Positions 10,803 through 23,999 of a stretch of 64,000 bases of DNA are shown piece by piece; within the stretch, counting starts at the first letter, position 1; the number at the start of each line of letters is the position of its first letter. The position numbers and the translations under genes are program-made. The DNA comes from Bacteroidales bacterium (GTDB lineage: Bacteria; Bacteroidota; Bacteroidia; Bacteroidales; P3): the NCBI GenBank assembly GCA_017522105.1, contig JAFXAA010000003.1, positions 28,340-92,339 of the forward strand, read 5' to 3'. The notes below the pieces were generated by a model. That model was not told the DNA's origin and ran no database searches. It was given only the letters and a program-made list of their open reading frames with translations.

Positions 10803-11549
10803 GTGGAACTGCTACGTAGCCTTTCAGCATTGGTAATGAAAAACACGGGGTCGGAATACAACACCATGTTGGGCAATTTTTCGGCAGCCAAGGGTGAGTT
10901 GAGGCTTTTGAATGTGAGTGCCGGAATAGGTGGAAGGTCATATCTGTCGTATCAGAAGGTTCCCGCTCGGCTACAGGAATTCTGTCAATGGCTCAATGCC
11001 GAGCGGAAACACCTGCACGAAGCAGACATTGAAGCGGTATATGACTTGAGTTTCGAAGCCCACTACAGGCTTGTGAATATTCATCCTTGGGCCGACGGTA
11101 ATGGTCGTATGAGCCGACTGGTGATGAATATGATACAGTACGAATTTGGCGTAGTGCCGTCGATAGTGAAAAAGGAGAAACGTAAGCAATACATCAGCTC
11201 TCTTGAACAAAGCGAAGAAGCAGAAGATTCAAAGAATTTCAAGACCTTCATGCTCCAGCATCATTGCGATAACCTGCTGAAACAGATTGAGGAGTACAAG
11301 CATAGCATGGGCGATGAAATCCATAGTGCCAAATCCGACAGCGCCTTGAATGGCACTATGGCACTAAGGATTATAGGCGCCTTACGCGCCAAGCCGTCAG
11401 CCACGATGGACAATCTGTCCAATACCCTGGGAATAGCCAGAAGGACGCTGGTACGATATATGAACAAGTTGCAGGAAGACAACAAGATAAAACGAGTGGG
11501 TGGCAGACGATACGGACATTGGGAAATCATAAAGGAGGACAATGAATGA
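10803..11549 (+). CDS. Fic domain protein, N-terminally truncated
   Basis: 248 residues from a GTG at 10803. The Fic active-site motif HPWADGNGR begins at H94 (codon 11082), so the AMP-transfer site looks intact. A C-terminal winged helix (TMDNLSNTLGIARRTLVRYMNKLQ) follows, ending KRVGGRRYGHWEII. Fic proteins with this arrangement normally carry about 80 more N-terminal residues. The frame is open back to a stop at 10659-10661 and reads HITVELLRSL just before the GTG, as in full-length relatives, but has no ATG, GTG or TTG upstream. The N terminus therefore seems lost, and the inhibitory helix that restrains Fic is not visible. It may be a decayed gene or be translated from the internal GTG. 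Confidence 0.75.
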   Translation: MELLRSLSALVMKNTGSEYNTMLGNFSAAKGELRLLNVSAGIGGRSYLSYQKVPARLQEFCQWLNAERKHLHEADIEAVYDLSFEAHYRLVNIHPWADGNGRMSRLVMNMIQYEFGVVPSIVKKEKRKQYISSLEQSEEAEDSKNFKTFMLQHHCDNLLKQIEEYKHSMGDEIHSAKSDSALNGTMALRIIGALRAKPSATMDNLSNTLGIARRTLVRYMNKLQEDNKIKRVGGRRYGHWEIIKEDNE

Positions 11550-12080: not shown

Positions 12081-12908
12081 ATGTGCAACGACAAGTTATA
12101 CAAATATCTTGACGCGAGCGGTGGATCGGCAATGCTGTACAACAGCACATTAATGTTCACCAACGCCACACAGTTGAACGACCCGTTCGACTGCCATCCA
12201 TTATATGTTCATTTTTCAAGAGAAATGCCAACACCTTACAAGGGTTGGCCGCCCGAAACTGTTTCAGAGTTAGAATACAACAAAGGCTTACAACGGAGAG
12301 ACAAAACATATATTTGCAGTCTTTCGAAAGTTTACGACTCCATTTTGATGTGGAGCTACTACAACCAACATCAGGGTATTTGTATCGGGTTGGATATGGA
12401 AAAAACGAGGAAGTGTCTGAACCGCATGATGGGCCTCTTTTATGGTTGCCCCGAACTTGAAGTTCAGTATCGGGATGTGATTAAAGAGCCATGCTCAATA
12501 AAAGGCCCCAACGATTTTCTCTGCAATCTTTTTGCCACCAAAGCAAAAGATTGGCAACACGAACAGGAGGTGCGTCTTATAGCGTACGACCCATCGCCAA
12601 TGTATATGCGCCTGTTACCCGGACAATATGAGGAGGACCCATCCTTTTGCACAAAACTCACTCGCATATTCCAAAAGAAAATGGACGAAACATCCATGGA
12701 TTGGAAAGACGTCCGAGCCTTTCTTGACATCGGTGGCGAGTGCTTTGAATCCGTCTACTTGGGGGTGAACTTGAATAAGAAAAAGAACGCAGAAAGTAGG
12801 GAAAAAATAATCAAGGCTGCCCGCAAGTGCAACCCCGACATCAAAATATACCAAATGACAATTGACCCCGAAGCCTTTAGGATGAAGCATGAACCGGTAG
12901 GTTTCTAA
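12081..12908 (+). CDS. DUF2971 family protein
   Basis: 275 residues. The start LYKYLDASGGSAML, NATQLNDPFDCHP, MWSYYNQHQGICIGLDM and the KDWQHEQEVRLIAY segment are the landmarks of DUF2971. Proteins of this family are often near phage-defence genes; their activity is not established. No signal peptide or membrane segment is present. It sits 12 bases before hsdM behind a good promoter, so it is probably the first gene of the restriction operon and may be a working part of it. Confidence 0.8.
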   Translation: MCNDKLYKYLDASGGSAMLYNSTLMFTNATQLNDPFDCHPLYVHFSREMPTPYKGWPPETVSELEYNKGLQRRDKTYICSLSKVYDSILMWSYYNQHQGICIGLDMEKTRKCLNRMMGLFYGCPELEVQYRDVIKEPCSIKGPNDFLCNLFATKAKDWQHEQEVRLIAYDPSPMYMRLLPGQYEEDPSFCTKLTRIFQKKMDETSMDWKDVRAFLDIGGECFESVYLGVNLNKKKNAESREKIIKAARKCNPDIKIYQMTIDPEAFRMKHEPVGF

Positions 12909-12920
12909 ATCTCAAAGAGT

Positions 12921-14633
12921 ATGTCAACAGAAGAACTGCAAAAACGGACAACCGTCAATATACAGGAGAAAGCCAATCTGATTTGGGCTATTGCCGATAA
13001 ACTGGTTGGCACATACAAACCTCACGAATACGGCAATGTGGTATTGCCCATGTGCGTCATCAAACGATTCTCCGACACTCTTGCACCGACCAAGCAGGCC
13101 GTGTTGGACGCCTACGAACTTTATGCCGTGAAGCGTAAGCTGGCAGTCTATGATGGCTTCCTGCGTGATGCCGCTGGCTTCGACTTCTACAACACTTCTC
13201 GCTTCACTTTCGACGGATTGTTGGCCGATGCCGACAACATAGCCGACAACTTCCGCAGCTACCTCAATCACTTTTCCAAGAATGTGATTGACATTATTGA
13301 GAAGTTCGACTTCGACAAGGAAATCTCCAAGATGGAGCATAACGGCATACTCTACAATGTCATTGCCGAGTTCTGTTCCAAGAAAGCCTATATGGGTGCC
13401 GACGCGATTTCGGCTGTCGATATGGGTTACATATTTGAGGAACTGGTAAGGAAGTTCTCAGAGAGCTACGACGAACAGGCAGGAGCACATTTTACCGCCC
13501 GTGACATTATCTATCTGATGGCCGAGCTGCTGATTGCCGAACAGTCCGACACGCTCCGCAAACAGGGCGTTACAGCTTCCATATACGATATGGCGATGGG
13601 TACAAGCCAGATGCTCGACTGTCTGGGCGAAAAGCTCCGCGAGATTGACCCCGATGCACAACTGACGGAGTTCGGGCAGGAACTGAACGAACAGACCTTT
13701 GCCATTGCCAAGTCAAACCTGCTCATCAAGGGTGGTCAAGCCGACAATATGCAGCACGGGAACACCCTGAGCGATGACAAATTTGACGGCTACCGTTTCG
13801 ACTATATCATTTCCAATCCACCGTTTGGCATCGAGTGGAAAAACGAGAAATCGGCTGTCGAGGCCGAACATCGGCGTGGTTCCGCTGGCAGGTTCGCACC
13901 TGGCCTCCCTGCCATAGGTGACAGCCAACAACTGTTTATGCTCAACGGTGTTGCTAAGCTCAAAGACAATGGCCGGATGGCTATCATTCAAAATGGTTCG
14001 CCATTGTTCAAGGGCGACGCTGGCAGCGGAGAGAGCGAGATTAGAGGCTATCTGCTGGAAAACGACTGGCTGGAAGCCATAGTGCAGATACCAAACGATA
14101 TGTTCTACAACACGGGTATTGCCACCTACATTTGGATTGTCACCAAGAACAAATCAACCCAGCGTGTAGGCAAGGTGCAGCTGATTGATGCCAGTCATTG
14201 CAGCCACAAACGCCGTAAGCCCATAGGCAACAAACGCAACGAGTTCACAGACGATTGTATTGCACTGGTGAGGAAAGCATATCTGGCCTTTACCGACGGT
14301 GTGTTTGAAGATGGTGACTTGCAGGTCGAAGTCAAGATAAAAGACAATGAAGATTTCAAGTTCCGCAAGGTGACGGTGGTTGACGGAAAGGATAAGGACA
14401 CCGAGACCATCCCTTGGAAAGAGGACGTTGAAGACTATATGCAGCGGAATGTCTATCCCTACCTACCCAAAGCCAAGATAGACCCCAAGAAGACCAAGAT
14501 AGGTTACGAGATACCCTTCACACGGGAATTCTACAAGTACGTTGCACCACGTAAGAGTGAAGACATATTCGCCCACCTGCAAGAGCTTGACCAACGTGAG
14601 CAGGAGTTGATGACTAAAATAATGGGGAGATAG
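12921..14633 (+). CDS. hsdM: type I restriction-modification system DNA methyltransferase subunit
   Basis: 570 residues. An N-terminal helical HsdM domain (IWAIADKLVGTYKPHEYGNVVLPMCVIKRF) precedes the N6-adenine methyltransferase domain. The SAM-binding motif I region reads YDMAMGTSQML (D223) instead of the usual DPxCGSG, a variant to note. The catalytic motif NPPF is at residues 299-302. GAHFTARDIIYLM is the conserved approach to motif I. It works as M2S with HsdS and as the core of R2M2S. hsdS starts 4 bases after the stop. Confidence 0.95.
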   Translation: MSTEELQKRTTVNIQEKANLIWAIADKLVGTYKPHEYGNVVLPMCVIKRFSDTLAPTKQAVLDAYELYAVKRKLAVYDGFLRDAAGFDFYNTSRFTFDGLLADADNIADNFRSYLNHFSKNVIDIIEKFDFDKEISKMEHNGILYNVIAEFCSKKAYMGADAISAVDMGYIFEELVRKFSESYDEQAGAHFTARDIIYLMAELLIAEQSDTLRKQGVTASIYDMAMGTSQMLDCLGEKLREIDPDAQLTEFGQELNEQTFAIAKSNLLIKGGQADNMQHGNTLSDDKFDGYRFDYIISNPPFGIEWKNEKSAVEAEHRRGSAGRFAPGLPAIGDSQQLFMLNGVAKLKDNGRMAIIQNGSPLFKGDAGSGESEIRGYLLENDWLEAIVQIPNDMFYNTGIATYIWIVTKNKSTQRVGKVQLIDASHCSHKRRKPIGNKRNEFTDDCIALVRKAYLAFTDGVFEDGDLQVEVKIKDNEDFKFRKVTVVDGKDKDTETIPWKEDVEDYMQRNVYPYLPKAKIDPKKTKIGYEIPFTREFYKYVAPRKSEDIFAHLQELDQREQELMTKIMGR

Positions 14634-14637
14634 GCGT

Positions 14638-15933
14638 ATGAGCAGGGCAATGAAAGATAGTGGAATACCGTGGATTGGTGAGATACCAAAGGGTTGGGAC
14701 ACTCTGAAAATAAAACAAGTGATGCGAAATAAAAGCATCAAAGGTTTCCCCAACGAAACTGTTTTGTCTTTATACCGTGATTATGGAGTGGTGCCAAAAG
14801 ATAGCCGAGATGACAACCACAACGTCACCTCAGAAGATACAAGTAGCTATAAACTTGTTGAGATTGGCGATTTTGTAATCAACAAAATGAAGGCTTGGCA
14901 AGGTTCAATGGCAGTATCTCAATACAGAGGCATTATTAGCCCAGCATACTACATTTGTCATTTCAAGAATGATGGTGTAGATAGGAGATACATCCACCAT
15001 TTGCTTCGCAACGACTCGTATAAGGCTGAATATATGAGGCTTTCCACAGGATTGCGTGTTGGTCAGTGGGATTTGAACATTGATGACTTTTTGTCTATTC
15101 CAATGGTTCTTCCTCCTGTTCCAGAACAGCAACGTATCGCGGAGTTCTTGGATAGGAAGTGTGGTGAGATTGACGAGGCGATAGCCTTGCAGGAAGATTT
15201 CATCGAGGAACTGAAAGTCTATAAGCAGTCCGTTATCACCGAAGTCGTCACCCGTGGCCTCAATCCCAATGTGAAGTTCAAAGACAGCGGTATTGATTGG
15301 ATTGGGCAGATACCTCAAGGATGGGAAGAGACAAAAGTTTTGAATCTTTTGTCAATGCCAATAACAGATGGTCCTCACGAAACACCTAAGTTATATGACA
15401 AAGGAATACCTTTTATTTCTGCCGATGCAGTATCTAATGGATGTATTAATTTTGAAAACAAACGAGGTTATATTTCAGAAGAATACTATTTGGAGTGTTG
15501 TAAAAAATATACCCCACAAAAAGGGGATATTTATATGATAAAATCTGGTGCTTCAACAGGAAGAACCGCCATTGTTGAGACTGATATGATTTTTACAATA
15601 TGGTCTCCTTTAGCTGTGTTTAGAGTCAATCCAACCTATTTGTATGAAAGGTTCCTTTTGTACGTTTTACGTTCTGATGGATTTCAAAAACAAGTCGAAA
15701 ACAAATGGACTTATGGGACACAGCAAAATATTGGAATGAGAGTATTGGAAAGACTTATTGTAAGTTATCCCACTCTGAAAGAGCAGCATCAAATCGCCGA
15801 CTACCTTGACAACAAATGTACCGAGATTGACAGCCTTATCGCCATCAAACAGCAGAAGATTGAGGAACTGAAAGACTACAAGAAGAGCATCATCTACGAA
15901 TACGTGACAGGAAAAAAGGAAGTCGATGGCTGA
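14638..15933 (+). CDS. hsdS: type I restriction-modification system specificity subunit
   Basis: 431 residues with two target-recognition domains. Each opens with the same phrase: KDSGIPWIGEIPKGW near residue 6 and KDSGIDWIGQIPQGW from residue 215. Each ends in a conserved helix (LPPVPEQQRIAEFLDRKCGEIDEAIALQEDFIEELKVYK; the second ends LDNKCTEIDSLIAIKQQKIEELKDYK). The two halves set a bipartite DNA target. Base composition falls in the variable parts, as is usual for exchanged recognition domains. Its last 8 bases overlap the start of the HEPN gene (ATGGCTGA). Confidence 0.93.
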   Translation: MSRAMKDSGIPWIGEIPKGWDTLKIKQVMRNKSIKGFPNETVLSLYRDYGVVPKDSRDDNHNVTSEDTSSYKLVEIGDFVINKMKAWQGSMAVSQYRGIISPAYYICHFKNDGVDRRYIHHLLRNDSYKAEYMRLSTGLRVGQWDLNIDDFLSIPMVLPPVPEQQRIAEFLDRKCGEIDEAIALQEDFIEELKVYKQSVITEVVTRGLNPNVKFKDSGIDWIGQIPQGWEETKVLNLLSMPITDGPHETPKLYDKGIPFISADAVSNGCINFENKRGYISEEYYLECCKKYTPQKGDIYMIKSGASTGRTAIVETDMIFTIWSPLAVFRVNPTYLYERFLLYVLRSDGFQKQVENKWTYGTQQNIGMRVLERLIVSYPTLKEQHQIADYLDNKCTEIDSLIAIKQQKIEELKDYKKSIIYEYVTGKKEVDG

Positions 15934-17185
15934 TACGAAAACATATAATGGGAAGTGGTGGATTCCCACGGAATTAGATAAAACAGAAGACTTTCGTTTT
16001 GCTGGAACTCTAACCATAGAAGGCGATGGCAGTTGTAGTCTTTTGATAAAAGCCCAACCCGATGGGAATAAATCATTTGAAAGCATTCCAGTGTTTTGGG
16101 GAGAAGATGAGAGTGGTGGTAAATATACCCTATTTGCGCTAACAATGACACAGTGGAATGTTGGTAAGTCATTGCGGTATAAGGCGAAATATGTTATTTG
16201 TGGTATCCATATATTATCTATGGACGAGCCATTTTTTGACGAGTGTCATGTTGAGTTTCCTTACCTTCAAACATGGACTGGTGCCACGATGCTGGACATT
16301 CCTCAGGATTATGAAGCGAACACTTTTACTATAGAGTACGGAAAAGACCATGTGTATGTTGAAGGAAAACTTGAAACATGGCTGCACTATAGAGTCGTAG
16401 ACAGAAACGTGTGCAAACAGGGAATGTTGGAGTTCACATCTTGGAAAGAAACCCAATACCATCTCATTTCGGAAAAACATTTGTCCATAAAGTCGTTTAA
16501 CAAATACATAAGAGAATTTGCGCAGTTCCTCTCATTAGCTTTGTATAGCAAACAGAATCCATCGGTTATTTATTTCCGTAAAAAAGGCGAAGAGAATGCT
16601 CACAGAATGTTTTTCATAGCACCGCATTCTCAGAAACCATTCGATACTGTGCTTATCCCCTTGTCTATGTTTAGGGATAGATTGTCCAATTTTATTTCAG
16701 GTTATCATTCCGCATTTGACAAGATTGAAACGTTGAATAGATATCTCATAACATCTATCCACTTCAGTGATTTTGACGCACCGGTATTTATTGTTGTTGC
16801 TCAAGCATTGGAAGGATATTACCAACGTTTTTTGAAAGGGAAAGAAGGTGTAAGTAAGCGGAAATGGGAAGCATTATTAAATCATTTTGAAGATGTAAAA
16901 GCATTAAGGGAGTGTAACATAGATGCAAATATTGTAAAAGACACACGAGACACGTACTCACATTTGTATATAGAGAAAGATTCAAAGAAATCAAATGTTG
17001 CCGAAGGAATGGACTTGGTAATGCTTACTCAAAAATGTAGAATATTGTTAACGTGTTGTTTACTTAAGGAAATAGGAATGACCACTGAAGAGATTAGCTC
17101 ATGTTTTGACAGAAATATTCTGCATTTCATGGTTTATAATGTAAAAAAGTACGAGACGGAGAAGCAAAATGAGGAAATGAAATAA
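15926..17185 (+). CDS. ApeA-like HEPN domain protein inside the hsd operon (putative RNase)
   Basis: 419 residues. The N-terminal half resembles the ApeA N-terminal domain (GKWWIP, FAGTLTIEGDGSCSL). The C-terminal half is a HEPN domain with the RNase motif R-x4-H as R341 DTYS H346 in IVKDTRDTYSHLY, then a helical end LTCCLLKEIGMTTEEI as in the Apea-type HEPN family. ApeA proteins are known anti-phage effectors, and HEPN motifs of this kind usually cut RNA. The gene begins inside hsdS (8-base overlap) and ends 15 bases before hsdR, so it is translated with the restriction enzyme. It is visibly AT-richer than hsdM and hsdR, as if inserted. The family and motif are seen; the guard role is inferred. 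Confidence 0.8.
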   Translation: MADTKTYNGKWWIPTELDKTEDFRFAGTLTIEGDGSCSLLIKAQPDGNKSFESIPVFWGEDESGGKYTLFALTMTQWNVGKSLRYKAKYVICGIHILSMDEPFFDECHVEFPYLQTWTGATMLDIPQDYEANTFTIEYGKDHVYVEGKLETWLHYRVVDRNVCKQGMLEFTSWKETQYHLISEKHLSIKSFNKYIREFAQFLSLALYSKQNPSVIYFRKKGEENAHRMFFIAPHSQKPFDTVLIPLSMFRDRLSNFISGYHSAFDKIETLNRYLITSIHFSDFDAPVFIVVAQALEGYYQRFLKGKEGVSKRKWEALLNHFEDVKALRECNIDANIVKDTRDTYSHLYIEKDSKKSNVAEGMDLVMLTQKCRILLTCCLLKEIGMTTEEISSCFDRNILHFMVYNVKKYETEKQNEEMK

Positions 17186-17200
17186 AACCCGAATCATAAT

Positions 17201-20200
17201 ATGGAAGATTCTGAGAAAAGATTTGAAAGCGACATAGAAGCCTATCTGCTCAGCGAGGGTGGGTATACAAAAGGCGACCAGAAGACATACGACAAGGCGA
17301 AAGCCATCGATATGGCTACGCTCATCAGTTTTATATTGCAGACCCAGCCGAAGACGTGGCAGAGGTATCAGAACGTGTACGGCGAGAGAGCAGAGAAGCA
17401 GCTGTACACCATCTTTCAACAGAATGTCGCCGACTTCGGGCTGATACACGTTTTGCGCCAAGGCGTGAAAGACCGTGGCATTGAACTTCGATTTGCCTAC
17501 TTCCAACCAGCTTCTCATAAAAACGAAGAGTTGGTGGAGAAATACCAGCAGAACATATTGACCTGTACACGCCAGTTCGCTTACTCGAAGCAAAACCATA
17601 ACACTATCGATATGGTGCTGTCGCTGAACGGCATTCCAGTAGTGGCCATTGAATTGAAGAACCAGTTGAAAGAGCAGAGCGTGGAGAACGGTAAACGCCA
17701 GTGGCGAGAAGACCGCGACCCCAAGGAACCGCTGTTCCATTTCAACAACCGCATACTGGCCTACTTCGCTGCCGACATCTACAACGTCTATATGACCACC
17801 GAATTGAAAGGCGAGGATACATTCTTCCTTCCGTTCAACCAAGGCAGCAACGGAGCTGGCAATATTGGTGACGGAGGCAATCCAAAGAACCCCGACGGCT
17901 ACGCCACCAGTTACCTTTGGGAGCGAGTGCTGAAACGTGATATGCTGCTGGCCATACTGCAACGCTATATCAGCCGTGAGGAAAAAGAGACCATCTTGTT
18001 GGAGAAAGGTAAGAAGGTCAAGAAGAAAAGTGTCAAGATTATCTTCCCCCGATACCACCAGCTCGATGTAGTAGAAAAGCTCGTTGATGATACCCGTAAG
18101 CAGTGCGAGGGCAAGAACTACCTGATACAACATTCGGCTGGCAGTGGTAAGAGCAATTCGATAGCTTGGCTCACCTATCGCCTGGCTTCGCTGCACGACG
18201 AGGAGGACACCGAGATGTTCCAGAGTGTCTTTGTAGTCACTGACCGCCGAGTGCTGAACCGCCAGTTGCAAGAAACCATACTTGGCTTTGACCACAAAAC
18301 TGGTCAGATTGTCACCATAACCGACAAGGATAACTCGACCAAGTTACGCGAAGCCATCAACGACAAGAAGCGTATCATTATCACCACACTTCACCGCTTC
18401 CCACTTATCTACAAAGAGCTTGACGGACACCAAGGCAAGCGTTTCGCTATCATTGTGGACGAAGCCCACAGTTCCCAGAGTGGCAAGAGTGCAGAGAAGC
18501 TGAAAGCTGCCCTTGCTGACACCGACGAGGCACTGAAAGAAATGGCCGAGCTGGAAGGCCGTACCGAAGAGGAGCTGAAAGACGGTATGGACGTAATGAC
18601 CGAGACCCTGCTGACCCAAGGACGGCACAAAAACGAATACTTCTACGCATTCACAGCAACCCCCAAGCCGAAGACTTTGCAGACATTCGGCATCGAGGCT
18701 GGCAAGGGCGAAGACGGTCAGCCACAATACACCGCTTTCCATCACTACTCGATGAGACAGGCCATCGACGAGGGTTTTATCCTCGACGTGTTGCAGTTCT
18801 TCACGCCGATAGAAACCAGCTACAAGGTGGCCAAGACCATTCAGGATAATCCAGAATACGAAGAACCGCCAGCACTAAAGGCTGTGCGCGAATACCACGA
18901 CAATCACCAGTTTGTGATCGAGCAGACAGCAGAGCTGATTGTGGAAAAGTTCAGGGAAATTACGCTGACCAAGATACATGGCAGGGCCAAGGCAATGGTG
19001 GTGTCGCCAAGCAGAGCACACGCCGTGCGCTACTATCTGGCCATAAAGGAATACTGCAAACAGAAAGGCTATACCGATGTGTCGCCATTGGTGGCCTTCA
19101 GTGGTACGGTCAGCTACGCTGGCAAAGAGTATACGGAACCGCAGCTGAACAGCACGGGTGATTTGAAGATTAGCGAGTCGGCATTGCCTATGTACTTTGC
19201 CAGCGATATGTACAATGTGCTGGTAGTGGCCGAGAAATACCAGACAGGATTTGACGAGCCGCTGTTGCACACGATGTTCGTCCTGAAGGGACTGAAAGGC
19301 GTTAAGGCCGTGCAGACACTTTCAAGGCTGAACCGCAGCTGCAAGGATAAGATAGACACATACGTCTTCGATTTCGTCAATTCTGCCGAAAGCATACAGG
19401 CATCGTTCAAGCCGTTCTACGAAGATACGCTGCTGGCCGAGCCAATAGATGTCAATGTGGTATATCGTTACCTGACTGAGTTGAAATCGTATCACCTGTG
19501 GAGCGACGAGGTGGAAGAAGCCGTCTATGCTGTCTATAACGAAAACCAGGACAACAAGACACTAGGCAAACTGTCGAGTGTGCTGAAACCAGTGGTGGAC
19601 GATTTTGGACAGTTAGACGAAGAAGATCGCTTCAAGGTGCGTTTCCTGGTCAAGTCTTTTGTCCGCTTCTACGCATATATGGCTCAGATTGCACGCACTT
19701 TCGACCGCGACCTGTTCAAGACTTACATCTTCTGTGAATACCTCTACAAACTGCTTCCTAAGACACCGCACGAAAAAGTGGATTTGAGTGGCAAGTTGAC
19801 GCTGGAACATCACCTGTTCAAGGTTCAGCCCAGTGGAGCTATACAGCTGAAGCCGACAACCGAGGAAAAGACCATCAAAGGTGAGAAAGGCGGCAAGGGC
19901 AAGAAGGAAGATGAGAAGCGCGACTTGCTGGACAACATTATTGAAAAGATTAACCTGATGTATCAGGGCAACTTTACCGAAGCTGACCGTGTGATTGTGG
20001 AGAGCATTTTCGACCGTTTGCAAGGCTCAGGCAAGACGCTGGCAAAGCAAGCCAAGACCACTGATGTCAATATGTTTGCTCGCAACATCTTCCCGAAGAC
20101 CTTCGACAAGGTGGCCCAGAAGTGTTATACAGAACAAATGGACGCATTCGCCCGTTTGTTTGAAGACCCGCAGTTTTACAAAACCGTTTTGGAAACTACA

Positions 20201-20767
20201 GCGAAGGCTATGTACTTCAAGTTCAAAAACGACGCGGAACAGGCCAAGGTGATACCATACAATGAGGAGGAAGAATCGTCAAATATGCCAATGGCTGCGG
20301 AAGACATCTTTATCTATGGTAGTATTCCTGTTGACCTTCCGAATACAAAAAGAACGGATTTGGTTGGAGAAAAGCTGGATTTGATATTGATGTATGCCAT
20401 CGGGCAACCAAATGCCCGCAAAAAGACGGAAGCAGCAGGAAAAATTGCGTTGGGAATAAAGGAAATCATGTTGGAGAATGAACAGTTGGCGGCATACACG
20501 AGTTTGAAGTATCTTTTGTTTCATTATTGGAGCAATCCAAAAGCTTATCTATTGACAAAGGAACCTTTGTTGGTGGATCCGGACAAGGTGCCATCAGATT
20601 ACCTAAAGAGAATGGAGAAAGATGCAGTAAAATATCTACTTCTGGAATATAGCCCAGACAGTCCATCAAATCTTGGCAATATCGATGTCCTCAAGACACA
20701 GAGAAGAGGTGAAATCAGATATTTGCCTTTTGTAACTACCATTGAAAGTATTGTCAAAGATGAATAG
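17201..20767 (+). CDS. hsdR: type I restriction enzyme, endonuclease/translocase subunit
   Basis: 1188 residues. An N-terminal nuclease domain has a PD-(D/E)xK site at D137 and E151-L-K153 (IDMVLSLNG...AIELKN). The helicase motor has Walker A AGSGKS at 313-318, DEAH at 420-423, FTATPKPKT and a second RecA lobe. A C-terminal helical domain follows. From about base 20260 the base composition becomes AT-rich and the last 170 or so residues (IYGSIPVDLPNTKRT onward) look different in style, perhaps a replaced tail. It overlaps the AbiH gene by 8 bases. It translocates and cuts unmodified DNA. Confidence 0.95.
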   Translation: MEDSEKRFESDIEAYLLSEGGYTKGDQKTYDKAKAIDMATLISFILQTQPKTWQRYQNVYGERAEKQLYTIFQQNVADFGLIHVLRQGVKDRGIELRFAYFQPASHKNEELVEKYQQNILTCTRQFAYSKQNHNTIDMVLSLNGIPVVAIELKNQLKEQSVENGKRQWREDRDPKEPLFHFNNRILAYFAADIYNVYMTTELKGEDTFFLPFNQGSNGAGNIGDGGNPKNPDGYATSYLWERVLKRDMLLAILQRYISREEKETILLEKGKKVKKKSVKIIFPRYHQLDVVEKLVDDTRKQCEGKNYLIQHSAGSGKSNSIAWLTYRLASLHDEEDTEMFQSVFVVTDRRVLNRQLQETILGFDHKTGQIVTITDKDNSTKLREAINDKKRIIITTLHRFPLIYKELDGHQGKRFAIIVDEAHSSQSGKSAEKLKAALADTDEALKEMAELEGRTEEELKDGMDVMTETLLTQGRHKNEYFYAFTATPKPKTLQTFGIEAGKGEDGQPQYTAFHHYSMRQAIDEGFILDVLQFFTPIETSYKVAKTIQDNPEYEEPPALKAVREYHDNHQFVIEQTAELIVEKFREITLTKIHGRAKAMVVSPSRAHAVRYYLAIKEYCKQKGYTDVSPLVAFSGTVSYAGKEYTEPQLNSTGDLKISESALPMYFASDMYNVLVVAEKYQTGFDEPLLHTMFVLKGLKGVKAVQTLSRLNRSCKDKIDTYVFDFVNSAESIQASFKPFYEDTLLAEPIDVNVVYRYLTELKSYHLWSDEVEEAVYAVYNENQDNKTLGKLSSVLKPVVDDFGQLDEEDRFKVRFLVKSFVRFYAYMAQIARTFDRDLFKTYIFCEYLYKLLPKTPHEKVDLSGKLTLEHHLFKVQPSGAIQLKPTTEEKTIKGEKGGKGKKEDEKRDLLDNIIEKINLMYQGNFTEADRVIVESIFDRLQGSGKTLAKQAKTTDVNMFARNIFPKTFDKVAQKCYTEQMDAFARLFEDPQFYKTVLETTAKAMYFKFKNDAEQAKVIPYNEEEESSNMPMAAEDIFIYGSIPVDLPNTKRTDLVGEKLDLILMYAIGQPNARKKTEAAGKIALGIKEIMLENEQLAAYTSLKYLLFHYWSNPKAYLLTKEPLLVDPDKVPSDYLKRMEKDAVKYLLLEYSPDSPSNLGNIDVLKTQRRGEIRYLPFVTTIESIVKDE

Positions 20768-22019
20768 GCTTGTACTCATAGGCAACGGCTTCGACTTGGC
20801 TCATGGTCTCAAAACCAAATATGAGCACTTCATAGATTGGTATTGGGAAGAATGGGGTAATCGATTGATGGTCGGTAAGAAATATAAATACGAAGATGAG
20901 TTTTGCTTGTTTGAATTACGAGATAAGGTTGGCATCGGTAATTGGTACTTGGTACGTGATTGGTATTTCCAAGATATAAAGTTGAATGCTAAGGAATTCG
21001 TACAAAGGGCAAAAAATGACACAAACTTGTGCATATTTAATTACAAAAGCCCTTTCTTTGAGCAAATCAACAAAAGCATAGAGGACAAGGGATGGGTGGA
21101 TATAGAGAACGAATATTATCTTTTACTGAAAAGATATGCCATAGAAAAACCCTCAAAAAATGACGTTATAAACCTAAACAAACAATTACATTTTTTGCAG
21201 GACAAATTAATTGAGTACTTAAGTGAGATTAATGAACAAGACAAAAATACCATAGATAAAATCAAAGAAAAAATCTTTGCACCAATTAATTCTTCTGATG
21301 TAGCCGTTGGAGCAACGAAAGTTTTAAATGAATATGTGGATTGGTGTATGGGGCTGCAGCATGGCGAATTGGAAAGGAAATTGAAAGAATATGGTATTGA
21401 TAGTGATCGTAGTTTTATTTATTTAAACGAGGTTGATGAATATTGGCAAAACCGCACCAGTTTTGTTGACTATCCTAGAGTGTTTAGATTACCCGATAAT
21501 ATAATGCTCCTGAACTTCAACTACACTAATACCGCAATGCAGTACATGCCATTGGAAGGACAAATATTTTTCCTCAACCATATTCATGGAGAGGTATCAA
21601 ATCCTCAAAATGTCATTTTCGGCTATGGTGATGAATTGGATGATGACTACAAGGCTATCCAAAATATTAATGACAATGATTATCTTAAAAATGTCAAGTC
21701 AATACGGTATTTAGAATCATGCAAATATAGAAGTGTATTGTCATTTATAGACTCTGCCCCATTTCAAGTTTGTATTATGGGGCATTCTTGCGGCAACAGC
21801 GACCGAACTCTACTTAACACACTTTTTGAGCATAGGAATTGTATCTCTATCAAGCCTTACTATTACATAAAAGAAAACGGAGATGACAATTATTTAGAAC
21901 TGGTACAAAACATCAGTCGTAACTTTACTGACATGAAACTTTTCCGCGACAGAGTAGTTAACAAAGAATATTGCGAACCACTTACGCATAAAAAAAAACA
22001 ACTAAATTTGATGGTTTGA
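20760..22019 (+). CDS. AbiH family phage abortive-infection protein
   Basis: 419 residues from the ATG at 20760 (ATGAATAG, overlapping the hsdR stop). A start six codons earlier is possible, but MNRLVLIGNGFDLAHGLKTKYEHF is the canonical AbiH opening. Other family features are WYWEEW, a middle coiled region (NKQLHFLQDKLIEYLSEINEQDKNTIDKIKEKIF), ILNFNYTNTA-like NFNYTNT and IHGEVSNPQNVIFGYGDE near residue 280, and IMGHSCGNSDRTLL near 345. In lactococcal AbiH the protein aborts phage infection by an unknown mechanism. It is AT-rich compared with hsdR. The stop-start overlap argues for co-translation with the restriction subunit. Confidence 0.88.
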   Translation: MNRLVLIGNGFDLAHGLKTKYEHFIDWYWEEWGNRLMVGKKYKYEDEFCLFELRDKVGIGNWYLVRDWYFQDIKLNAKEFVQRAKNDTNLCIFNYKSPFFEQINKSIEDKGWVDIENEYYLLLKRYAIEKPSKNDVINLNKQLHFLQDKLIEYLSEINEQDKNTIDKIKEKIFAPINSSDVAVGATKVLNEYVDWCMGLQHGELERKLKEYGIDSDRSFIYLNEVDEYWQNRTSFVDYPRVFRLPDNIMLLNFNYTNTAMQYMPLEGQIFFLNHIHGEVSNPQNVIFGYGDELDDDYKAIQNINDNDYLKNVKSIRYLESCKYRSVLSFIDSAPFQVCIMGHSCGNSDRTLLNTLFEHRNCISIKPYYYIKENGDDNYLELVQNISRNFTDMKLFRDRVVNKEYCEPLTHKKKQLNLMV

Positions 22020-22994: not shown

Positions 22995-23999
22995 ATGACG
23001 GAATTACCAAGGAAATACAATCAGGCTGACGAGAACAACCGAAAGATTTCTGCTTATCGGCCTCTGCCACCAGAGACGCTGAATTCGCTACGTGAATACT
23101 ACCGTGTGGGGCTGACCTATACCAGTAACGCACTGGAAGGAAACAGTCTGACGGAGTCGGAGACCAAGGTTGTCATCGAGGATGGACTGACAATAGAGGG
23201 CAAGCCTCTGCGCGACCACTACGAAGCTGTTGGTCACGCCAAGGCGTATGACTATATCTACAGTATCACCGAGAATGAAAAGCTGTGTGAGGAAGATATC
23301 ATCACTCTGCATCGTCTGTTCTACCAACAGATAAATGCTGAGGAAGCTGGACGTTACCGCACAGTGAAGGTGTATATCAGCGGCAGTCGCTATGCTGTGG
23401 CTGCAGTATCGAAAATTTCCGCAGAGATGCAGAAGCTTGTCAAGTGGTACAACGATAACGAGAAAAAGCTGCACCCTGTAGAACTGGCTGCTATGCTGCA
23501 CCAACGTTTCGTTTTCATTCACCCATTTGTTGATGGCAACGGACGTGTGGCACGTTTGCTTATGAACCTTTCACTGCTGCGCAACGGATATACCATTGCC
23601 ATCATTCCTGCTATTCTCCGCCACGAGTATATCCATTCGCTCGAAATGGCACATGTTAGCCCAGAAGTATTCACCGACTTTATTGCCGACCGTATAATCG
23701 CTACCCAGCTCGACCTGCTCCGACTGATGGGAGACGGGGATGATACTGTAAATGATACTGTAAATGATACTGTAAAACGTGTCGATACACCTCGGCTTTC
23801 CAAGACAGAGCAAGCTGTGTTGGCGGCTATCGGCATGCATCCAGACTATTCCTATGAACAGTTGGCGGCAGTGTGCGGTGTTTCGCGTCCCACGATTGCA
23901 AGGACGATAAAGACTTTACAAGCCTGCAACTGCATCCGCCGTATAGGTTCTGACAAGAAAGGCCGCTGGGAAATCATTAACGAATCAAGAATCTCATAA
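22995..23999 (+). CDS. Fic family protein with inhibitory helix and C-terminal winged helix
   Basis: 334 residues, full length. The N-terminal inhibitory motif S-x3-E-G-N is at S44-E48-G49-N50 (TSNALEGN). The active site HPFVDGNGR begins at H176. A C-terminal winged helix (SYEQLAAVCGVSRPTIARTIKTLQ) ends KKGRWEII, close to the end of the truncated Fic at 11.5 kb. Fic enzymes transfer AMP or similar groups to proteins; the in-chain helix makes this class II (self-restrained). The linker before the winged helix holds three DTVN units made by a 12-base tandem repeat. It has its own promoter and closes the accessory block. Confidence 0.9.
   Translation: MTELPRKYNQADENNRKISAYRPLPPETLNSLREYYRVGLTYTSNALEGNSLTESETKVVIEDGLTIEGKPLRDHYEAVGHAKAYDYIYSITENEKLCEEDIITLHRLFYQQINAEEAGRYRTVKVYISGSRYAVAAVSKISAEMQKLVKWYNDNEKKLHPVELAAMLHQRFVFIHPFVDGNGRVARLLMNLSLLRNGYTIAIIPAILRHEYIHSLEMAHVSPEVFTDFIADRIIATQLDLLRLMGDGDDTVNDTVNDTVKRVDTPRLSKTEQAVLAAIGMHPDYSYEQLAAVCGVSRPTIARTIKTLQACNCIRRIGSDKKGRWEIINESRIS
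23740..23776. repeat. 12-base in-frame tandem repeat in fic
   Basis: GATACTGTAAAT occurs twice and is followed by GATACTGTAAAA, encoding DTVN DTVN DTVK. Changes in copy number would lengthen or shorten the linker without breaking the frame. Confidence 0.85.

Follow-up and report, generated by a model that had tools for sequence, protein, structure and literature searches.

An ApeA-family HEPN gene between hsdS and hsdR of a Bacteroidales type I restriction-modification operon

We analysed a 64,000-nucleotide stretch of Bacteroidales DNA (GenBank assembly GCA_017522105.1, contig JAFXAA010000003.1, positions 28,340 to 92,339 of the forward strand), here called the window, in which a gene for an ApeA-family HEPN protein lies between hsdS and hsdR of a type I restriction-modification (R-M) operon. 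Genes of the same HEPN group recur at this place, the hsdS-hsdR slot, beside distantly related Hsd subunits, and operons nearly identical to that of the window have other genes, or none, in this slot. The HEPN gene is thus exchangeable cargo, which may encode a self-contained abortive-infection RNase; roles tied to the restriction enzyme are weighed against this reading. The genes of the apparent operon are as follows.

12081..12908, + strand: DUF2971 protein, 275 amino acids (Pfam DUF2971, 3.7e-6; PADLOC candidate PDC-S31, 9.8e-28), 12 bp 5′ of hsdM
12921..14633, + strand: hsdM, type I methyltransferase subunit, 570 amino acids (N6_Mtase, 1.9e-54; HsdM_N, 1.4e-22)
14638..15933, + strand: hsdS, specificity subunit, 431 amino acids (Methylase_S, 2.3e-22; PADLOC Specificity_I, 2.1e-101)
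15926..17185, + strand: ApeA-family HEPN protein, 419 amino acids, with ApeA_NTD1 (residues 7-258) and a C-terminal HEPN domain carrying R341-DTYS-H346
17201..20767, + strand: hsdR, restriction/translocase subunit, 1188 amino acids (SWI2_SNF2, 2.7e-20; HSDR_N, 3.4e-12)
20760..22019, + strand: AbiH-family gene (Pfam AbiH, 1.1e-27), overlapping hsdR by 8 bp

The HEPN protein and its junctions

The junction bases were read directly. The ATG of the HEPN gene at 15926 precedes the hsdS TGA (15931-15933), which gives an 8-base overlap, and its TAA ends at 17185, 15 bases before the hsdR ATG at 17201. Both junctions, the ApeA-like HEPN assignment and the residues R341 and H346 (Rx4H) had been described in the original prediction and hold base by base. 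The reading frames of HsdM, HsdS and HsdR are complete and collinear in the window, with NCBIfam scores below the cut-offs (98 bits against 243 for TIGR00497 in HsdM, and 178 against 285 for TIGR00348 in HsdR).

The HEPN protein has the full ApeA architecture in a single chain with no added Pfam domain. ApeA_NTD1 matches with E=6.4e-26 (91.9 bits, cut-off 25.5) and HEPN_Apea with E=8.8e-12 over residues 313-389 (46.1 bits, cut-off 24.4). In PADLOC the protein matches PDC-S58 (2.9e-25) and Cas13-ApeA (1.8e-11), and in NCBIfam it has no match. No ABC-ATPase or P-loop match was obtained within its 419 amino acids in Pfam or PADLOC. The active-site arginine and histidine are aligned in all 23 family members compared, nine close and 14 wider, and several N-terminal residues are common to the ApeAs of other contexts (G59 in 14/14, G27 in 13/14, W117 in 12/14, W11 in 11/14). 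Between the window protein and eight others, the N-terminal part (1-200) is 23-28% identical and the HEPN part (291-395) 43-52%; the N-terminal part therefore changes faster, which fits a sensor domain. The R-M-linked members (417-433 amino acids) show no increase in length over the 14 others (408-497 amino acids).

Structure prediction was too poor to assign a fold (mean pLDDT 47.9 for the window protein with a 5-row alignment, and 49.9 with a 6-row alignment for the relative at locus L021). The low-confidence models allowed no more than an order of predicted secondary structure, with strands in the first half and helices in the second, and no solved structure was matched by sequence or profile apart from one chance match (E 0.89).

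Recurrence and exchange of the slot gene

With a profile built from two sequences, a scan of 84,980 species, each represented by one genome, gave 36 candidate stretches, four of which were confirmed (L019-L022), at only 29-33% identity to the window HEPN protein in the best segment. Profile searches gave matches in 5/120 genomes of the window's genus (the window's own, G918, G892, G846 and G938), in 6/99 of the genus of G201, three of them L019, L020 and L022 by coordinates, and in 7/173 of the G201 family, namely six already known and one 32-bit match (G1134, L095). In the window's order, a single-protein search matched two of 393 genomes, including the window's own, and an hsdM search at a strict limit matched the window alone (1/393), with 6/149 in the family. 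Among viral contigs, none matched the single window protein as query, and one of 40 candidates from the A2 profile was confirmed (L093). Phage and plasmid records held no match for the window protein; the L021 protein had no phage match there and one partial match in a Rhodococcus plasmid (30% of the query, 30.8% identity).

The tree unites nine rows (the window, L019-L022, L090, L086, L091 and L092) in one fully supported group (100/100). L093, which was found after the tree was made, has a HEPN protein 70% identical to that of L021 and brings the known members to ten. Places matched by coordinates were counted once (L003 and L080 equal L022; L081 equals L020; L082 equals L019; L083 equals L090; L084 and L094 equal L091). 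Five partial, broken or weak matches (L044, L046, L047, L079 and L089) stand outside the tree and motif list; L092 is in both and outside the conservation count. The tree program flagged long branches among the wider ApeA members.

The order hsdS-HEPN-hsdR, whose absence from related genomes the original prediction had named as refuting, was found in seven of the ten members (the window, L019, L020, L021, L022, L090 and L093), each with hsdM upstream and the HEPN gene on the operon strand. In five of these seven the HEPN gene lies directly 3′ of hsdS, with 4 or 8 bp of overlap between its start and the hsdS stop, whereas a PIN_8-type gene separates the two in L022 and L090. No gene intervenes between HEPN and hsdR in the window and L021. 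L093 has two there, of which one is a PADLOC PDC-S02 candidate, and L019, L020, L022 and L090 have sets that include an AAA_15 ATPase and a 194-amino-acid gene. A protein of 1233 amino acids is also encoded in the slot of L019 and L020 (11311-15012 in each), the L019 copy having no Pfam or PADLOC match; its relative, in two reading frames, lies near the ApeA gene of L041 (14067-17871), where no hsd gene was recognised.

The other three members are placed differently. The L091 HEPN gene lies 35 bp 3′ of hsdR in another type I operon, where a second HsdM carries the specificity domain as a fusion. In L086, at the end of a contig, the HEPN gene overlaps its upstream neighbour, which matches no known family; no hsd match occurs in the 4.5 kb listed downstream, so hsdR does not come next. 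The L092 HEPN is truncated (237 amino acids), with no hsd match within the stretch listed.

The HEPN and Hsd proteins disagree in their relationships. The window and L021 share 81% identity in HsdM and 69% in HsdR, and 30% in HEPN; the L021 HEPN protein shares 55-56% identity with its counterparts in L019, L020, L022 and L090, at 42% (HsdM) and 36% (HsdR) between L021 and L019. L093 repeats this pattern, with HsdM 81%, HsdR 68% and HEPN 31% against the window, and HEPN 54%, HsdM 42% and HsdR 37% against L019. The tree likewise joins the HEPNs of L021 and L019 (100/99 support) and leaves that of the window outside this branch. The histories of the HEPN and R-M genes therefore differ, and, as judged by sequence comparison, HEPN genes have moved between Hsd lineages. 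A single Hsd lineage accounts for L019, L020, L022 and L090 (HsdM 98-99% in the three compared; HsdR 93-94% in L019, L022 and L090), so the seven loci reflect fewer than seven independent events. The AT-richness noted in the original prediction is borne out (G+C 0.37 for the window HEPN gene, 0.50 for hsdM and 0.48 for hsdR), hsdS also being low at 0.40; across the seven slot members the HEPN G+C is 0.34-0.39, below that of hsdM (0.47-0.55) in 6/6 loci with both computed.

The slot itself varies within the genus. A survey with hsdR at E 1e-80 gave 16 matches in 15/120 genomes; four loci at contig ends (G920, G926, G950 and G906:C57) have no readable junction, which leaves 12. Eight of these slots are filled and four are empty, and the contents amount to at least six gene kinds: the ApeA gene of the window, a gene of 218 amino acids with a 23S_rRNA_IVP match under threshold, a gene of 137 amino acids of no family, Fic at two loci (in L033 by an N-terminus near-identical to that of L032, itself Pfam-confirmed), DUF1016/YhcG, AlbA_2, and a set of YobI-ATPase, AbiH and Fic. 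In the four nearest operons, whose HsdR proteins are 94-96% identical to the window's, the slot holds the 218-amino-acid gene (G862), the 137-amino-acid gene (G812) or nothing; in the two empty ones, G929 and G906 (HsdR 95% and 96% identical), only 5 bp separate hsdS from hsdR. This R-M lineage can therefore do without the HEPN gene, which it has gained or lost, in keeping with the earlier remark that the gene looks inserted. That the R-M system requires the gene was considered and rejected, since empty alleles exist.

The 218-amino-acid slot gene of G862 (L029, 4974-5783) is bordered by short ACCTAAGA/ACCTAGGA-type repeats. AbiH genes are found 3′ of hsdR in the window (20760-22019), L029 (8866-10140, 56% identical), L073 and L074, and once inside the slot (L071). 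In the window the AbiH ATG at 20760 lies 8 bases inside the end of hsdR, and the DUF2971 gene, 12 bp before hsdM, is probably the first gene of the operon on the basis of spacing; the apparent operon therefore has six genes, and three of them (DUF2971, HEPN and AbiH) are outside the R-M enzyme proper. Promoter and terminator scans were barely above shuffles (28 vs 22.5, standard deviation 4.5; 14 vs 10.6, standard deviation 3.4) and were left unused. DUF2971 (PDC-S31) is also directly 5′ of hsdM in L032 (1694-2506, compared with 12081-12908 in the window), a 96-amino-acid piece of it precedes hsdM in L031 (16336-16626), and Fic genes flank the window operon on both sides (10803-11549 and 22995-23999). 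In addition, the C-terminal part of the window HsdR (residues 955-1188) is 66-70% identical to that of the otherwise distant HsdR proteins of G803 and G906:C57 (L074, L073), and the HsdR proteins of G862, G906 and G929, close relatives of the window's, stop near residue 1035. The C-terminus shared among distant proteins suggests that the hsdR genes are chimeric.

Beyond this group, ApeA_NTD1 matched in 16/395 genomes of the phylum, 14 above the cut-off, the window's included. The order hsdS-HEPN-hsdR was not seen at 18 wider places (15 others in the phylum and L087-L089). Their neighbours were screened by phmmer, with proteins of the window, L019 and L022 as queries, and a selection of them also by Pfam, a screen that could miss distant hsd genes; it recognised a possible restriction-type gene at five of the 18 (L037, L038, L042, L045 and L048) and, incomplete as it is, none at the other 13. 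ApeA lies directly 3′, on the same strand, of a type IIG-like gene in L037 and of a DNA methylase gene in L038. In L042 a type I specificity gene is nearby, with a weak match to hsdM on the other strand; in L045 ApeA follows a ResIII helicase fragment, and in L048 it is 2.2 kb before an SNF2/ResIII helicase. A protein kinase is among the neighbours in L035, an HNH gene in L034, and AlbA_2 and AAA genes in L088. In L088 (1964-11493) the ApeA relative (445 amino acids) stands in a run with AAA_15, AlbA_2 and, by our own reading of the sequence, a phosphoadenosine-phosphosulfate-reductase-like gene, perhaps a different defence cluster.

Proposed role and alternatives

We give a rough probability of one half to the reading that the window protein is an ApeA-type abortive-infection RNase, triggered via its own N-terminal domain, whose gene occupies the hsdS-hsdR slot as exchangeable cargo. 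The sequences themselves show the family, the motif, the gene order, the recurrent placement and the exchange of cargo; its RNase activity, trigger and suicidal effect are what we infer. Briefly, the HEPN protein would be made together with the R-M subunits by coupled translation, as its overlapping start suggests, and at rest the N-terminal domain would hold the HEPN RNase off. A signal sensed by that domain, coming from a phage that survives restriction or breaks down DNA, would act as the trigger. The activated HEPN domain would then cut RNA through R341/H346, translation would halt, and the infected cell would stop phage production. The restriction enzyme would thus be the first line of defence and ApeA the second. 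The complete ApeA architecture, the shared N-terminal residues and the fast N-terminal change favour a self-contained effector, and the disagreement between HEPN and Hsd histories together with the variable slot marks ApeA as cargo open to exchange, whose own N-terminal domain evolves fast. The placement of seven of the ten group members in the slot, the occurrence of wider ApeAs in other contexts and a preprint title reporting deoxydinucleotide activation of ApeA (reference list of PMC13405049) also speak for this reading.

Several points weigh against this reading. The strongest is that eight of the ten group members lie within type I R-M operons, a sign of some dependence on R-M. For the trigger, the source is the title of a preprint that concerns another ApeA. 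With only 23-28% identity between the N-terminal part and its nearest kin, the ligand may differ, and fast evolution of this part would also fit a partner-binding domain. The predicted structures, given their low confidence, lend no help.

The original prediction took the slot position to point to a possible PrrC-like guard, in which the HsdMSR complex would bind and silence the HEPN RNase until a phage anti-restriction protein disables the complex and frees it. The position within the operon resembles that of prrC, the HEPN start overlaps hsdS in most slot members, the eight type I placements would be expected, and the 2013 HEPN survey (PMC3710099, section 10) proposes guarding for R-M-linked HEPN families generally. 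On the other hand, one HEPN lineage (54-56% identical) is paired with Hsd systems of 42% (HsdM) and 36-38% (HsdR) identity, and Hsd systems sharing 81% (HsdM) and 68-69% (HsdR) carry HEPNs only 30-31% identical. Such exchange, together with empty alleles, makes a tight, co-adapted PrrC-type complex less likely, though binding through a conserved surface could still occur. Moreover, the slot of near-identical operons is empty or otherwise filled, the protein has no ABC-ATPase domain, R-M-linked members are not longer than others, and the L091 gene sits after hsdR. A PrrC-like role deduced from position alone is therefore rejected, and a guard function in general seems unlikely to us; the interpretation first offered for the locus is partly supported.

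A pure co-location, with the slot as a recombination hotspot and the HEPN gene as an independent defence gene without functional tie to restriction, would account for the diversity of the genus slots and for the two group members with no hsd neighbour. We hold it to be improbable: without some preference for R-M, random cargo would hardly be expected to put one HEPN group into the slot of at least two clearly distinct Hsd lineages and behind the hsdR of a third. The most doubtful of the alternatives is a two-step relay, in which HsdR cutting and cellular exonucleases would release short deoxynucleotides from phage DNA, so that restriction would switch on the neighbouring ApeA: a 2026 preprint, seen as a title in the reference list of PMC13405049, states that deoxydinucleotides activate ApeA, and the repeated placement in R-M operons and the ApeAs directly behind possible restriction-type genes in L037 and L038 agree with it, but a restriction-type gene was found near few of the wider ApeAs in the incomplete screen, and no nuclease was identified beside ApeA in L038.

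Some wiring of the embedded ApeAs to restriction, whether they are held by the Hsd complex and freed on phage inhibition or switched on by restriction-derived short deoxynucleotides, is a tentative proposition with a minority chance of being right. If true, an exchangeable module would equip distantly related type I enzymes with a two-stage immunity that runs from restriction to RNase; should deoxydinucleotide activation apply to this protein, DNA breakdown would be the trigger, and restriction itself could supply it. The loci offer natural matched sets, namely near-identical Hsd systems with and without the HEPN gene and one HEPN lineage with different Hsd systems. Such sets can distinguish, by experiment, between three relations of an embedded HEPN gene to the restriction enzyme: as its guard, as an effector that it feeds or as a simple travelling companion.

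Comparison with known systems

The layout of the window is a further example of one already known. In the 2013 survey (PMC3710099), ApeA/BMEI1217 is listed as R-M-operon-embedded in epsilonproteobacteria (Table 1), at least 16 HEPN clades are linked to R-M, and a PrrC-like release is proposed. The hsdS-hsdR gap was put forward as a possible defence hotspot in 2025. Among the matches listed in the open-licence literature, no paper deals with ApeA in Bacteroidota hsd operons and none tests the guard idea for ApeA.

With ApeA, the window protein shares the same full-length domain architecture, the Rx4H motif and the single-protein form; it differs in being embedded in a type I R-M operon. The epsilonproteobacterial cases likewise have an ApeA-family gene inside an R-M operon, in a different phylum. 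EcoprrI likewise has a HEPN-superfamily nuclease gene between hsdS and hsdR of a type I operon. PrrC is reported to be sequestered in the type I complex (PMC3874165) and is named among the R-M guardian systems (PMC12707154). The original prediction called the window protein a member of an unrelated family: family and architecture do differ, since PrrC has an N-terminal ABC-ATPase domain and the window protein has none, but the PrrC nuclease domain has itself been placed in the HEPN superfamily (PMC3710099). Other effectors are also reported to be embedded in type I operons: DarTG2 between hsdS and hsdR in enteropathogenic Escherichia coli (EPEC) (PMC12255303), RloF of Campylobacter between hsdR and hsdS, and TgvAB inside the operon of V. 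cholerae VPI-2; TgvAB alone gave protection against phages, which for several of them was weaker than that of the complete cluster (PMC11411939). The window ApeA resembles these systems in its embedding, and DarTG2 and RloF also in its position between hsdS and hsdR, while the effectors differ.

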